NCBI RefSeq assembly: GCF_002694385.1
Contig: NZ_NZMB01000019.1
Span: 37,988-101,987 of the forward strand
Source: Sneathiella sp.
GTDB lineage: Bacteria; Pseudomonadota; Alphaproteobacteria; Sneathiellales; Sneathiellaceae
Direction of reading: 5' to 3'
Length of the DNA: 64,000 bases
Positions 39,828 to 46,201 of this stretch are shown here, in pieces; positions within the stretch are counted from its first letter, which is position 1, and every line of letters starts with the position of its first letter. The translations under genes and the position numbers were made by a program. The notes under the pieces were generated by a model. The model saw nothing but the letters and a program-made list of their open reading frames with translations, had not been told where the DNA came from and ran no database searches.

Positions 39828-40427
39828 TCAGATTTCCTCTTCTTCCGGATCAATGGGGTCTTCTTCAGTCGTGGCAAGATCGCTGAAAATACTGCCCGGC
39901 TCCAGATTGAGCAGGCCCGCCGCCTTCATTTCATCAAAGCCCGGCAGATCCTTGATATCATCCAGCCCGAAGTGGATGAGAAAGTCTTCCGTCACCCCAT
40001 AGGTGACAGGACGGCCGGGCGTCCGCCGCCGTCCGCGTGGCCGGATCCAGCCCGCATCGAACAGCACATCCATGGTGCCCCGGCTGAGACCGACACCGCG
40101 GATTTCCTCGATCTCCGCGCGGGTGACGGGCTGGTGATAGGCGATAATGGCGAGGGTTTCAAGGGCGGCACGGCTGAGTTTACGGGTCGTCTCCCGTTCC
40201 ATCTCCAGCAGCCAGGCAAGATCGGGCGCCGTCAGGAAACCCCATTTCCCGGCAAGCCGGACAAGATTCACGCCGCGTCCCTTATAGGTCTCCTCAATAC
40301 TGGCGAGGATGGCGGCAATGTCGGCATCCTCGGGCAGGCGTTCGGCCAGTGTGGCTTCATCCAGCGGCTCGCGGGAGGCGAACAGCAACGCCTCCGCCAT
40401 TCGGACATGTCCGGGATCGACGCTCAT
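39828..40427 (-). CDS. scpB: Segregation and condensation protein B
   Basis: EALLFASREPLDEATLAERLP, LSRAALETLAIIAYHQPVTRAEIEEIRGV. Confidence 0.92.
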   Translation of the reverse strand: MSVDPGHVRMAEALLFASREPLDEATLAERLPEDADIAAILASIEETYKGRGVNLVRLAGKWGFLTAPDLAWLLEMERETTRKLSRAALETLAIIAYHQPVTRAEIEEIRGVGLSRGTMDVLFDAGWIRPRGRRRTPGRPVTYGVTEDFLIHFGLDDIKDLPGFDEMKAAGLLNLEPGSIFSDLATTEEDPIDPEEEEI

Positions 40428-41221
40428 TCCGTGTCTTTCCTCATTTTCACCTGAATGGGGCCAAATGTCTGCCCCTGTCGCAGTTCAAGTCGCCCCTCCT
40501 TCGCCATTTGCAGGCTGGCGAGCAATGTGGACGCCTGCGCCGAACGACGGCTGAAAGGGGTCGCCAGATTATCGGGCAGATAGGACATCAGATCGGTCCA
40601 TTCGGGCAAGGATCCCAGCATCCGTTCGAGCCGGGCTAGCGCCTGCTCTACGGAGAAGACCGCCTCCCGCATCAGGCGGAGGGGATTGGTGATGCCCTTG
40701 CGCTCCTTCTGCGCGGCATAGGCGTGCAGCAATTCGCGCAGCGTACAGTGATACCGGGAATGACGCAGGATACGGATCGCCTCGGGCCGGCCGCGCGCCA
40801 TCCGGTCGCGCCCGGTAATGCGCCCGTCCATCAGCTTGTCCGCCGCGCCGCGCATGGCCTCCAGCTTGCGCAGCATGAACGCGAGCCGTTCGGCAAGTTC
40901 CTCCCCGCTCGGCCCCTCGTCATCCTTTTCCGGCGGCAACAGCAGCCGGGATTTGAGATAGGCCAGCCATGCCGCCATCACCAGATAGTCGGCGGCCACC
41001 TCAAGACGCAGGCTGCGGGCCTGCTCGATAAAAGTGAGATATTGCTCCGCCAACTGCAAAATGGAAATTTTGAGCAGATCGACCTTCTGATCGCGGGCAA
41101 GCAGCAGCAGCACATCCAGCGGCCCTTCATAGCCATCGAGGTCGACCAGCAACGCCTGCACGGGATGCGCAATCACCTCCGGATTTCTCTGCCCGGCCTC
41201 ATCGAAGGAGCCCTTATCCAT
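40424..41221 (-). CDS. scpA: Segregation and condensation protein A
   Basis: VDLDGYEGPLDVLLLLARDQKVDLLKISILQLAEQYLTFI; ATG at 41221 with GAAAGGGG upstream preferred over 41296. Confidence 0.92.
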   Translation of the reverse strand: MDKGSFDEAGQRNPEVIAHPVQALLVDLDGYEGPLDVLLLLARDQKVDLLKISILQLAEQYLTFIEQARSLRLEVAADYLVMAAWLAYLKSRLLLPPEKDDEGPSGEELAERLAFMLRKLEAMRGAADKLMDGRITGRDRMARGRPEAIRILRHSRYHCTLRELLHAYAAQKERKGITNPLRLMREAVFSVEQALARLERMLGSLPEWTDLMSYLPDNLATPFSRRSAQASTLLASLQMAKEGRLELRQGQTFGPIQVKMRKDTE

Positions 41222-41270
41222 TTGACCCCTTTCCTGCCCGTGAATTGACGCCTTTGACCATGGCAAAAAT

Positions 41271-41960
41271 CTAGCCGAGACCGGCCAGCTTGGCAATCAG
41301 ATTGACCACATAGTTAATGGGCGCGCCGAGCAGCCAGCTCAAAGGATTGATTTCACTTCCGAGCTGGCGGGAGATCATCGGCACCAGAAAGATCACGGCG
41401 AGCAGGATCACGAAGCCATAGCGTTCCAGCCGGGCAAGCGGAAGCGCGAGACGATCCGGCAAGAGGCCAACCGCGACCCGCCCGCCATCCAGCGGCGGCA
41501 GCGGCAGAAGATTAAAAACCCCCAGTATCACATTGAGGATAATGCCATTTCTGAAGTTATCGGCGAACCAGAAGGCCATATCACCGGACATATATTGCAA
41601 TGAGTGCACCCCGAGGGCGAAGAGAAAGGCGAGCAGGAAATTCATTCCCGGCCCGGCCAGCGCGACCCAGATCATGTCGCGCCGCGGATTGTTGAGGCGC
41701 GCCACATTGACCGGCACCGGCTTCGCATAACCGAACAGAAACGGCGCCTTCACCAGCAGCAGAAAGCCCGGTATGAGGATTGTGCCGACCGGGTCAATAT
41801 GGCGGAAGGGGTTGAAGGTCACCCGCCCCTGCCGCTTCGCCGTGTCATCGCCAAGCTTCCAGGCAACGAAGCCATGCGCCGCCTCATGCAGCGTGATGGC
41901 GGTCAGCGCCGGGATAATCCAGATGGAAATCTGATAGAGAATGCCCGTTATATCCATCAC
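41271..41960 (-). CDS. Site-2 protease (M50) family metalloprotease
   Basis: ITLHEAAHGFVAWKLGDDTAKRQGRVTFNPFRHIDPVGTI, LNLLPLPPLDGGRV. Confidence 0.92.
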   Translation of the reverse strand: MMDITGILYQISIWIIPALTAITLHEAAHGFVAWKLGDDTAKRQGRVTFNPFRHIDPVGTILIPGFLLLVKAPFLFGYAKPVPVNVARLNNPRRDMIWVALAGPGMNFLLAFLFALGVHSLQYMSGDMAFWFADNFRNGIILNVILGVFNLLPLPPLDGGRVAVGLLPDRLALPLARLERYGFVILLAVIFLVPMISRQLGSEINPLSWLLGAPINYVVNLIAKLAGLG

Positions 41961-43000
41961 ACCGTCTCCCGCGCCAGAATTTCCGCGAGGCGAATGCTGT
42001 CCTCCTCCGGCCGCAGCGCGGTGTCGCCCGCCGCCTGCTGCAATTTTTCCCCATGGGCGATGCGTGCCAGTGTCTTCTCATGGGGCGGCGGGCATTTCCC
42101 GGCCACCTCCCGCATCTCATCGAGCTTGCCGGAGCAATGCAACACGATATCCACCCCGGCGGCCAGCGCCTTCTCCGCCCGCTCCCCCAGCGCGCCGGAA
42201 AGCGCCTGCATATTGATATCATCGCTCAACAGCAGACCGTCGAAGCCAATCTCGCCACGGATCACTTCGTCAATCACGATCGCCGACTGTGTCGCCGGAT
42301 GATGCGGATCAATCTCGTCAAAAACGATATGGCTGGTCATGCCCCAGGGCAGCAGGGAAAGCTGCTGAAAGGGCCTGAAATCCGTCGCCGTGAGTCTATC
42401 ACGCGCCGCGCCCACATGGGGCAATTCCAGATGGCTGTCCACCGTCGCCCGGCCATGCCCCGGCATATGCTTGATCACGGGAAGAATTCCGGCTTTCAGC
42501 ATTTCCTCCGCCACCACGGCGCCCAGACGGGCGATGACCATCGGATCATCGGCAAAGGCGCGATCGCCGATGGCCGCAACCGTTTCCTCAAGCCGGAGAT
42601 CAAGACACGGCGTGCAATCCACCGTGATGCCCGCCGCCTGCAGATCCGCGGCAATCAGACGGGTGGTCAGGCGCAACGCCTCGATGGCGAGGGCCGGATC
42701 GCGGCCATGCAGATCACCAAAAAAGCCGAAGGGCCGCGCCTCGAACCAGTCGGGCGCGCGCAGGCGCTGCACCCTCCCGCCTTCCTGATCAATGAGAATG
42801 GGGACATTGGGCCGATCCGCCACCTCCCGCAGCTCCGCCGTCAGCGCGGCGAGTTGCGCCGGGCTTTGCACATTGCGGGCAAAAAGGATGAAGCCGAAGG
42901 GCTTTTCAGCGGCGAAGAAGTCTCTCTCCGCCGTCGTCAGATGAAGCCCTTCAAAGCCGAAGATAACAGCGCGAAAAGACGCCGGATCATCCGCTGACAA
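41957..43000 (-). CDS. nagZ: Beta-N-acetylhexosaminidase
   Basis: GFILFARNVQSPAQLAALTAELR, LIDQEGGRVQRLRAPDW, VIKHMPGHGRATVDSHLELPHV. Confidence 0.93.
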   Translation of the reverse strand: MSADDPASFRAVIFGFEGLHLTTAERDFFAAEKPFGFILFARNVQSPAQLAALTAELREVADRPNVPILIDQEGGRVQRLRAPDWFEARPFGFFGDLHGRDPALAIEALRLTTRLIAADLQAAGITVDCTPCLDLRLEETVAAIGDRAFADDPMVIARLGAVVAEEMLKAGILPVIKHMPGHGRATVDSHLELPHVGAARDRLTATDFRPFQQLSLLPWGMTSHIVFDEIDPHHPATQSAIVIDEVIRGEIGFDGLLLSDDINMQALSGALGERAEKALAAGVDIVLHCSGKLDEMREVAGKCPPPHEKTLARIAHGEKLQQAAGDTALRPEEDSIRLAEILARETV

Positions 43001-43862
43001 CGAGACAATCCTGCTTCGCGGCCTTCAGATCATTACACAGCTTCGAGGCGGCATCGCGACCAAAGGAACCAAGCTGCAAACGATAATAGGTTTTGCCGTT
43101 GACCTGCACATCCTGCACCCGATACCCGACGCCGGAGAGCAGGGAGCCATGCTTGCCCGTCAGGTTGGACCATTGCTTCTCCGCTGCATCGACGGATCCG
43201 AAGGAGCCGACCTGCACCCAGCTATTGCCGCCGGGCGTCGCCGTTTCCTTGGCAGGGGGCAGAGCCGCCGTCACCGTTTCTTTCGCGCTTTCTTTCACCG
43301 TCTCCGAAGTCTCGGCGACTTTTTCTTCTGCAGCGGCGGCAGTTTCTTTTGCGGCCTCAACGGCTTTTTCAGTGGTGTCACTCACCGCATCGGCAGCCTT
43401 TTCCGCTGTCTCAGTCACCTTGTCGGCGGCCGCCTCACCGTCTTCCGTCGCCTTTTCCACAAGCTGATCCAGCTTGTTTTCATCCGCCGCCTTTTCAGCC
43501 TCGCTCAGCTCCGGCTTTTCCTCGCGGATCGCCGCTTCCGGCGGGGCCATCAGCTTTTCTACCTTTTCCTCTCCCTCACCGGAGTTGAGGACGTTGAAGA
43601 CCTGCTTGTCCTGATTGGGCACTTCCATGCCGCCGGGATCCTCCGGCGCCACCTTCACCGGCGCCTTGTCGGCGCTGATGATCGGCGGGGCGAGTTGCAC
43701 GCCCTTCTTCACGCCCTGATCATAGGCGTACCAGATACCGATGCCGAAACCGAACACGATGAGCAGGGCCAGCGTTGCGCCAATCCATCTCCGGCGGCTG
43801 AAACGCGGTTCATCCTCGCCCTCATAAAAATCATCATCCGGATATTCATCTTCGCGGTTCAC
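42987..43862 (-). CDS. SPOR-domain membrane protein with Ala/Glu/Lys-rich linker
   Basis: One N-terminal TM (WIGATLALLIVFGFGIGIWYAYDQG), low-complexity linker, C-terminal SWVQVGSFGSVDAAEKQWSNL...YYRLQLGSFGRDAASKLCNDLKA; GTG start. Confidence 0.88.
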   Translation of the reverse strand: MNREDEYPDDDFYEGEDEPRFSRRRWIGATLALLIVFGFGIGIWYAYDQGVKKGVQLAPPIISADKAPVKVAPEDPGGMEVPNQDKQVFNVLNSGEGEEKVEKLMAPPEAAIREEKPELSEAEKAADENKLDQLVEKATEDGEAAADKVTETAEKAADAVSDTTEKAVEAAKETAAAAEEKVAETSETVKESAKETVTAALPPAKETATPGGNSWVQVGSFGSVDAAEKQWSNLTGKHGSLLSGVGYRVQDVQVNGKTYYRLQLGSFGRDAASKLCNDLKAAKQDCLVVSG

Positions 43863-44896
43863 TAGCCATACTCCTTTACCATATCGACGCCGAGAGATGT
43901 CATCCCGCCATCCAGAATTGCATCCAGCGCCCCGAGCAGCACTCTTCTTGCGGGCGTCTCCGCCCCTCCCCCAAGATAGTCAGAGGAAATCGGGCGCTCC
44001 GTCTCGAACAGGCGGAAAAATAGCAAGGAAAGGTCCTGGAGGAAAGAGGCGAGATAAAATCCGTCCTGCTTGCGCAGCGTCTCTTCCACCGCCAGCGGCC
44101 AATCCGCCAGCCGCCTCATGAGCGCCCTTTCCTCCCCTCCGTTCAGAAAGGAAAGATCCGCCCCCTCCAGAATGGCCCTCTCTCCCGCCGCCCACGTCGC
44201 GTTTAGCCGCGCCAGCATCATCCGCGCATAGGGAATGGCGAAAACAGGGTTATTATAGCTGCGCTCTGTGGCCAAAATAGGGCTGAACGCCCTCATAAAG
44301 GCGGGCGGATTGGCGATCAGGGCAAATTTCGTGCGTGCCTCCCCGCATCTGGCAATCGCCGCTCCGGCCGGATAACCGCTATCGCTCTCTGTATTCTCCG
44401 CCGCCACCTCGATTATCACGGCCCCTGACTTTTCCGCAAGCCGCCGCAGCACTTGCCCATTCACGTCTTCCCGCAGGCCGCAAAGATCGTGCAGCGAAGC
44501 CGGGCGGCGGACTGTTACTGCCCCCAAACCCGCCGCCAGCCCATCAAGGCCATATCCTGCCCCCTCCCGCAGCAGCAGAGGAAGCTGCGCCTGCCAGAAT
44601 TCCGGCTTATATATCAGATTGATGTAGCCATTTGTTTCATACCGCACTTCTGTGAGATCGGGCAGCGCCTTCAAACGGGAGAGAAGCGCATCAATCCTGG
44701 CGTCTGCCCCTTCCCGGCCCGCCGATGTCAGCAGGATCGCCGCATTAGTGGCCAGATCCGCGACATGTGGCCCCTGCGGCGGGCGGAGGCGTAAATCGGC
44801 GAGAAACCGCGCCGCCGCCATCTCGGTCGCAAAGGCATCGCTTCCCAGCGCCGATAACAGCGCCTCACGGACCATAATATGATAGGATCGGGACAT
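43862..44896 (-). CDS. ArgRS-like protein with N-terminal (Add1) and DALR anticodon-binding domains but no catalytic core
   Basis: VADLATNAAILLTSAGREGADARIDALLSRLKALPDLTEVRYETNGYINLIYKPEFWQAQL matches ArgRS N-domain; NNPVFAIPYARMMLARL...FYLASFLQDLSLLFFRLFE...RRVLLGALDAILDGGMTSLGV matches DALR; no HIGH or KMSK. Confidence 0.85.
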   Translation of the reverse strand: MSRSYHIMVREALLSALGSDAFATEMAAARFLADLRLRPPQGPHVADLATNAAILLTSAGREGADARIDALLSRLKALPDLTEVRYETNGYINLIYKPEFWQAQLPLLLREGAGYGLDGLAAGLGAVTVRRPASLHDLCGLREDVNGQVLRRLAEKSGAVIIEVAAENTESDSGYPAGAAIARCGEARTKFALIANPPAFMRAFSPILATERSYNNPVFAIPYARMMLARLNATWAAGERAILEGADLSFLNGGEERALMRRLADWPLAVEETLRKQDGFYLASFLQDLSLLFFRLFETERPISSDYLGGGAETPARRVLLGALDAILDGGMTSLGVDMVKEYG

Positions 44897-45013
44897 CCCG
44901 CGCTTTCCTTAACAGCGGCCAATTGACAAACAGCAATAGGATTAATACATCATCTATTGTATAGTCACTATAAATCAGGGCGGATTGGCCCTGTCTTTTG
45001 GGTAGATGTTGAA

Positions 45014-45364
45014 ATGTCTGTCATGGATCAAATGGAGCCGCCGGTCAAACTTTCCGATCAGGCCGCGGCGCGCGTAAACACCATTGTCGAGGAAATGAAT
45101 TCCGACAAAAGGATGCTGCGCGTTGCCGTCAATGGCGGCGGCTGTTCCGGCTTTCAATACAGCTTCGATCTTGATGATACGCAGAATCCCGATGATGTCG
45201 TCGTCACCAACAAGGGCGCGACGCTGCTAGTGGACCAGATATCCCTGATGTATCTCGCCGGGTCAGAAATTGACTATGTCGAGGATATGATCGGCGCGTC
45301 ATTCCAGATCAAGAACCCCAACGCGACCGCCTCCTGCTCCTGCGGGTCATCATTTGCGATTTGA
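45014..45364 (+). CDS. erpA: Iron-sulfur cluster insertion protein (HesB/IscA; ErpA-like)
   Basis: LRVAVNGGGCSGFQYSFDLDD, FQIKNPNATASCSCGSSFAI. Confidence 0.9.
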   Translation: MSVMDQMEPPVKLSDQAAARVNTIVEEMNSDKRMLRVAVNGGGCSGFQYSFDLDDTQNPDDVVVTNKGATLLVDQISLMYLAGSEIDYVEDMIGASFQIKNPNATASCSCGSSFAI

Positions 45365-45392: not shown

Positions 45393-45416
45393 GCCCGGTT
45401 CATGCCGGGCTTTTGT
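45393..45416 (+). terminator. Intrinsic terminator after erpA
   Basis: GCCCGG-TTCATG-CCGGGC followed by TTTTGTGTTTTT. Confidence 0.75.
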
Positions 45417-45433
45417 GTTTTTCGGGGGATGAG

Positions 45434-46201
45434 ATGAAAATTGCGAGCTGGAATGTCAATTCCGTGAAAGTCCGCCTGCCGCGGCTGATGGATTATCTGA
45501 AAGACTACGCCCCCGACGTGCTCTGCCTTCAGGAATTAAAGGTCATCGACGAGAATTTCCCCCGTCTGGAGGTGGAGGAACTCGGCTATCATGTGGAAAC
45601 ACACGGCCAGAAAACCTATAACGGCGTCGCCCTCCTTTCCAAATTCCCCCTTGAGGATATCCGTCGCGGTCTGCCGGGCGATGACGCGGATGAGCAAGCC
45701 CGCTATATGGAGGCAACCGTGCAGGGCATACGCATCGCCTCCATTTACCTGCCGAACGGCAACCCCGTGGACAGTGACAAATTTCCCTATAAGCTCGGCT
45801 GGATGGAGCGGCTGATCACCCACGCCAAAGGGCTGCTGGAAAGTGAAATGCCCGTTGTCCTTGCGGGCGATTACAACATTATCCCGCAGGATGAGGATTG
45901 CTATGATCCGAAGGCATGGGAAGGCGATGCCCTGACCCGCCCGGAAAGCCGCAACCGCTTCCGCCAGCTTCTCAATATGGGCTATACGGATGCCTATCGC
46001 GCCTATACCACCGATGTGAATTACACCTATTGGGACTATCAACGGGGCGCCTGGCAGAAGGATCACGGCATCCGCATTGATCATCTCCTCCTCTCCCCGC
46101 AGGCGACGGACCGCATGGGCAAAGTCGGGATAGACAAGGGCCCGCGCGGACAGGACAAACCCTCCGACCACACCCCTATCTGGGTGGAGATTGAGGGTTA
46201 G
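45434..46201 (+). CDS. xth: Exodeoxyribonuclease III
   Basis: MKIASWNVNSVKVRLPRLMDYLKDYAPDVLCLQELKV, LAGDYNIIPQDEDCYD, SDHTPIWVEIEG. Confidence 0.93.
   Translation: MKIASWNVNSVKVRLPRLMDYLKDYAPDVLCLQELKVIDENFPRLEVEELGYHVETHGQKTYNGVALLSKFPLEDIRRGLPGDDADEQARYMEATVQGIRIASIYLPNGNPVDSDKFPYKLGWMERLITHAKGLLESEMPVVLAGDYNIIPQDEDCYDPKAWEGDALTRPESRNRFRQLLNMGYTDAYRAYTTDVNYTYWDYQRGAWQKDHGIRIDHLLLSPQATDRMGKVGIDKGPRGQDKPSDHTPIWVEIEG

Follow-up and report, generated by a model that had tools for sequence, protein, structure and literature searches.

The window, a 64,000-nucleotide stretch of contig NZ_NZMB01000019.1 from a Sneathiella sp. whose close relatives are S. chungangensis, S. litorea, S. sedimenti and S. 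chinensis, carries on its minus strand an uninterrupted open reading frame (ORF) of 344 aa at positions 43862-44896, with an ATG start, no internal stops and its stop codon at 43862-43864, exactly where the initial annotation had placed it. By ORF analysis, Pfam matches, phylogeny and synteny, its product is an ArgRS-derived protein without the catalytic core, to which we refer as the stump. The stop codon overlaps by one base (TAGTG) the start of a gene for a SPOR-domain protein on the same strand (42987-43862; ORF, Pfam), which is followed by nagZ (41957-43000, minus strand; Glyco_hydro_3 in Pfam) and by a conserved syntenic neighbor (40424-41296, minus strand; ORF, synteny) that we take, from the established alphaproteobacterial gene order, to be an scpA homolog. 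Between nagZ and scpA lies a predicted membrane protein with a HEAAHG motif (site-2-protease-like; 41271-41960, minus strand), and an ORF resembling it occupies the equivalent place in locus L098 of another alphaproteobacterium (G246). On the plus strand, the stump is flanked by a divergent erpA-like Fe-S_biosyn gene (44957-45364; Pfam, synteny) and a conserved xthA-like exonuclease III gene (45413-46201; ORF, synteny).

At the domain level, the stump joins the two ends of an ArgRS, as first proposed. Residues 1-125 (44522-44896, minus strand) correspond to the N-terminal (Add1, tRNA D-loop-binding) domain and residues 214-344 (43865-44257, minus strand), beginning at NNPVFAIPYAR, to the DALR-type anticodon-binding domain (ABD). 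In the window protein itself DALR_1 scores 25.4 bits in Pfam against a cut-off of 22.3, Arg_tRNA_synt_N matches weakly and below its cut-off (E 0.11), and tRNA-synt_1d does not match; among 20 Sneathiella homologs, all 20 match DALR_1, 17 match Arg_tRNA_synt_N (best 7.6e-9) and none matches the catalytic-domain model. PDB ArgRS N-domains align to positions 10-164 of the stump profile, and the AF2 model is compact (pLDDT 88, pTM 0.89), with ArgRS structures making up all of its best 20 Foldseek matches in the PDB at query-length-normalized TM scores of at most 0.66. Of the parts of a functional ArgRS, the N-domain and the DALR domain are thus present and a catalytic domain with HIGH and KMSK or KTR motifs is absent.

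The loss of the core is not quite as complete as the initial annotation had it: no tRNA-synt_1d domain is left, but some 40 aa around the HIGH site and the post-KMSK segment persist. Residues 126-165 (44402-44521, minus strand) are a remnant of the first Rossmann part, comprising a mutated HIGH site and then the helix LRRLAEKSGAVI, and residues 177-213 (44258-44368, minus strand) represent the post-KMSK segment, with CGEARTKF as the GKDVVRF equivalent and the derived invariants C184 and S205. The deletion junction occupies residues 164-176 (44369-44407, minus strand): aligned with KMSK-type ArgRS, 236-243 residues, which include the remaining Rossmann fold and the KMSK loop (VKMSKRAGTFV), are reduced to about 13 aa between the post-HIGH helix and the post-KMSK segment. 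The HIGH region itself has changed from NPTGPMHVGHCRG in ArgRS to PASLHDLCGLRED in the stump, SLHDLCGLRED standing in the alignment for PMHVGHCRG, with H137 replaced by D and H140 by S or G. The segment LRRLAEKSGAVI, initially read as sitting at the KMSK position, aligns instead with ArgRS VLANLLSKAGYDV, the helix after HIGH, which rules it out as a KMSK relic and leaves the KMSK loop within the deletion. By this alignment the stump is shown to lack the residues that define catalysis, the HIGH site being destroyed and the KMSK loop deleted; the deletion removed the catalytic domain from where the HIGH half ends up to and including the KMSK loop, and the HIGH motif mutated away.

The position of the gene points to its ancestry. 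In the 16 loci compared, the order in Sneathiella is xthA-erpA/stump-SPOR-nagZ-scpA wherever contigs are long enough to show it (L032 starts right at the stump and L036 ends within it), and L098 has xthA-erpA/argS-SPOR-nagZ-scpA with an intact, 618-aa, KMSK-type argS at the identical position, which bears out the initial assignment to the alphaproteobacterial argS slot. Across a class sample of 289 alphaproteobacterial genomes, the stump profile matches about 240 KMSK-type ArgRS as two pieces, 1-164 and approximately 174-339, within frames of 570-620 aa. In a tree built on 319 shared columns, 21 stumps, including one from a sister genus of the same family (G025), group as a single clade (98/99) that falls inside the alphaproteobacterial KMSK-type ArgRS. 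The branch of the sister-genus stump is very long and its exact place in the tree is unsure; its homology is settled by the shared slot. The genome’s only tRNA-synt_1d match is a 590-aa ArgRS at another locus, the full-length second synthetase that the initial annotation had anticipated, but of the KTR type (HVGHLR and GKPLKTR). KTR-type ArgRS are separated from the stump and KMSK-type group (100/100), and mean stump identity is 25% to KMSK-type vs 18% to KTR-type enzymes; tree and identity together rule out an origin as a duplicate of the genome’s own KTR-type argS. Taken together, the tree, the slot and the full-length ArgRS of the other type elsewhere show, at the level of sequence comparison, that the stump is the resident alphaproteobacterial KMSK-type argS minus about 240 codons, lost in frame, as had been suggested. 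The collapse predates the split of Sneathiella from the sister genus, the stump having been retained since.

Whether such a protein could still bind tRNA can be approached through its residues (numbered as in the window protein, whose own residue 46 is A). KMSK-type ArgRS share 18 conserved N-domain positions, of which the stumps retain only G46, D47, N51, G90 and N93, and all five lie at the GDYQ/GFxN pocket for the tRNA D-loop (A20). Residues 45-51 (44744-44764, minus strand) form the equivalent of the GDYQ motif, [WY]GDL[CS]TN and here VADLATN, with D47 in 21/21 stumps and N51 in 20/21, and residues 87-93 (44618-44638, minus strand) end in GYIN, where Y91 and N93 align with F82 and N84 of E. 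coli ArgRS. In the E. coli enzyme, F82 stacks on and N84 hydrogen-bonds with A20 of tRNA-Arg (PMC8975779). Position 91 is aromatic in 18 of 21 stumps, and all four tRNA-Arg genes found in the genome carry A20. Comparison of the ABD with 54 ArgRS shows the stumps to have lost Y220 and the C-terminal Met (343), which all 54 share, and half of the stumps to have lost the equally universal R227, and the basic residues R268, H280, R281, H294 and R307, conserved in the KMSK type, have become hydrophobic or aromatic; because of both losses, ArgRS-style anticodon recognition is doubtful. The initial notion that both tRNA-binding ends were retained consequently stands for the domains and is uncertain at the residue level, with Y220, Met 343 and R227 as the ABD positions in question. 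The D-loop side of the stump looks preserved and its anticodon side remodeled, as far as aligned residues can tell. Near-invariant residues that are new to the stumps and absent in ArgRS comprise C184, S205, P206, Y214, L291, L292, F294, S304 and Y307. C184 (44345-44347) is Cys in 20/20 Sneathiella stumps, where it replaces a Val invariant in the ArgRS compared, and is lacking in the sister genus. The stumps are acidic, with net charges from -3 to -25, but KMSK-type ArgRS range from -15 to 0 over the same columns, and as a hint of tRNA binding charge is uninformative for most stumps.

On this evidence we lean, tentatively, toward an adaptor or chaperone that is catalytically dead and binds tRNA, rather than a scaffold. 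The pocket argument behind this choice is post hoc and draws on few positions, and the stump operon contains no tRNA-modification gene. The competing idea, a repurposed protein-protein module that has kept the fold, lost tRNA binding and acts as a scaffold or partner, perhaps tied to the envelope and chromosome operon, is a serious possibility that we nonetheless consider rather unlikely. The derived near-invariant residues, mostly non-polar or aromatic, the loss of ArgRS-universal ABD residues and the overlap of the stump stop with the SPOR gene start would all fit it, but within the N-domain it is the tRNA pocket that has kept its ArgRS residues best, and, because the operon position is the ancestral argS position, the neighbors of the stump are uninformative on its function.

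Other uses of the stump can be weighed against the biology of the replacement enzyme. KTR-type ArgRS occur in roughly 45 of the 289 sampled alphaproteobacteria and are nearly mutually exclusive with the KMSK type, which suggests repeated displacement. One further alphaproteobacterium (G280; L193:2846-7846) has a 1667-aa frame combining a KTR-like ArgRS (tRNA-synt_1d, DALR_1), a partial aldehyde dehydrogenase and a GNAT acetyltransferase, and also matches the KMSK-type profile. If the sole ArgRS of a cell is essential, the only viable order would have the KTR-type enzyme arrive before the collapse. No stump was found at the erpA-SPOR slot in 33 regions from KTR-type genomes, some of them cut by contig ends; in six of seven erpA-SPOR gaps read in such genomes, the slot holds a dGTPase-like (dgt) frame, recognized by eye from HD-type motifs, and in the seventh (L130) the longest frame is uninformative. 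A dgt-like gene is absent from the Sneathiella slot (window 44897-44956 and loci L025-L040). Among the lineages inspected, the Sneathiellaceae are the only one seen to keep a stump.

That every stump-bearing Sneathiella genome except the draft G019 has an ArgRS catalytic domain (PF00750 search) would suit a non-catalytic heteromer partner of the KTR-type ArgRS that raises its affinity for tRNA, as animal SLIMP does with SerRS2alpha. SLIMP, an animal mitochondrial SerRS paralog with an ablated active site kept beside a functional synthetase, is the precedent (PMC10570016), and the stump is likewise a dead synthetase derivative beside a functional ArgRS. Unlike the stump, SLIMP is a SerRS duplicate with its domain structure kept and an obligate subunit, and its partner has lost the domain that SLIMP supplies, a loss not seen here. 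The KTR-type ArgRS of this genome retains its own N-domain and DALR domain, and other alphaproteobacteria use KTR-type enzymes with no stump in the erpA-SPOR slot; for these reasons it needs no helper, and we regard a heteromer as improbable.

The stump is also too well maintained to be read easily as debris. Stop-free homologs are present in 22 of 25 Sneathiella genomes and in 18/18 near-complete ones, at identities of 30-50%; an alignment of 20, at 28-50% identity to the window protein, has 27 invariant columns. The divergent relative in the sister genus was missed by a single-sequence search and found through its erpA-SPOR interval; it matches Arg_tRNA_synt_N and DALR_1 above their Pfam cut-offs and has no catalytic domain. 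Among the 289 genomes of the class and 398 of the phylum that were sampled, no other core-less ArgRS appeared as a full-length match, and a short frame in G312 was rejected because it is a fragment at a contig edge whose KMSK is intact. In one genome, G004 (L018, L093, L094), the stump and the functional argS both look frame-broken in their 5' parts, probably through an error-prone assembly. For the closest pairs, dN/dS of the stump is 0.24-0.37, alike across three regions (0.28, 0.23 and 0.27), whereas functional ArgRS from these genomes give approximately 0.03-0.08; the stump evolves much faster than ArgRS and is under purifying selection weaker than that on the functional enzyme. These values and the genus-wide stop-free homologs accord with the long-term retention that the initial annotation had assumed, and neither the frameshifts or stops nor the dN/dS near 1 of a decaying pseudogene are seen in the genus matches, which excludes that reading. 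A slowly decaying remnant that serves as a leader and preserves transcription/translation coupling of SPOR-nagZ-scpAB would account for a dN/dS several-fold above that of functional ArgRS and for the very divergent sister-genus version, but it is largely refuted, and in our view highly improbable, given amino-acid constraint throughout, the 27 residues that stay invariant at 28-50% identity, the confident AF2 fold and the lack of a stump in the slot of other inspected KTR-type lineages. A deletion created by misassembly of an otherwise normal argS, conceivable at first sight from one genome, is refuted and has a negligible probability, as independent Sneathiella genomes, both isolates and MAGs, show the same architecture with different sequences.

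Core-less ArgRS-like proteins are already known as a kind, in DALRD3 and NrtL. The NrtL family (NCBIfam NF045898, ArgS-related anticodon-binding protein) has about 330 aa with an N-part, an ABD and no core, like the stump, which aligns end to end over residues 34-338 with positions 30-322 of the 327-position NrtL model. The stump scores 53.8 bits against a family cut-off of 340 and is therefore a non-member; on the same model, other stumps reach 52-61 bits, the sister-genus stump 62.7 and a real KMSK-type ArgRS 148. NrtL is actinobacterial and lies in an argS-like slot near lysA. The stumps sit in the alphaproteobacterial argS slot and nest within alphaproteobacterial ArgRS in a tree of stumps and KMSK- and KTR-type ArgRS; slot, tree and scores disfavor an NrtL import as the origin. 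The stump is probably a separate, convergent case. Its direct ancestor, the alphaproteobacterial KMSK-type ArgRS (TIGR00456, argS), shares its slot, N-domain and ABD and differs by the approximately 240 aa, HIGH and KMSK missing from the stump, which scores 19.5 bits vs the argS cut-off of 261.65. We found no functional paper on NrtL and no paper on the Sneathiella ArgRS-like protein in the literature. Vertebrate DALRD3 shares with the stump an ArgRS-type DALR domain and the lack of a catalytic domain, but it differs in an N-terminal part without recognizable motif, a separate origin and a eukaryotic m3C methyltransferase as its partner. DALRD3 serves METTL2 as an adaptor, guiding it to the arginine tRNAs that DALRD3 binds (PMC7237682).

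For the tRNA-binding adaptor that we tentatively favor, we infer tRNA binding, a partner and a physiological role as follows. The stump would dock on tRNA, most probably tRNA-Arg, mainly where its N-domain forms the D-loop (A20) pocket, and its remodeled C-terminal domain could contact an altered part of the tRNA or else a partner, for which the KTR-type ArgRS and a tRNA-modifying enzyme are candidates. Its mode of action may resemble that of vertebrate DALRD3, bringing arginine tRNAs to a methyltransferase. A broader proposal, speculative and not one we would call probable, is that argS was displaced by a foreign ArgRS and stripped in place to an adaptor or sensor that binds tRNA-Arg and would be the bacterial equivalent of DALRD3, and that core-less ArgRS arose repeatedly, in the Sneathiellaceae, NrtL and DALRD3.

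The Sneathiellaceae show with unusual clarity what can remain of an essential enzyme gene at its own locus once another enzyme has displaced it. Relatives have an intact argS in the slot, this one family has a stump under selection, and the other KTR-type lineages inspected have retained nothing of the gene there; the leftover protein is kept by selection, presumably for a second job. If core-less ArgRS did arise repeatedly, a protein that binds tRNA-Arg without charging it would seem to be of general use. Should the stump bind tRNA-Arg, how a cell benefits from an ArgRS relative that does not charge tRNA would become a question testable in cultured marine bacteria.
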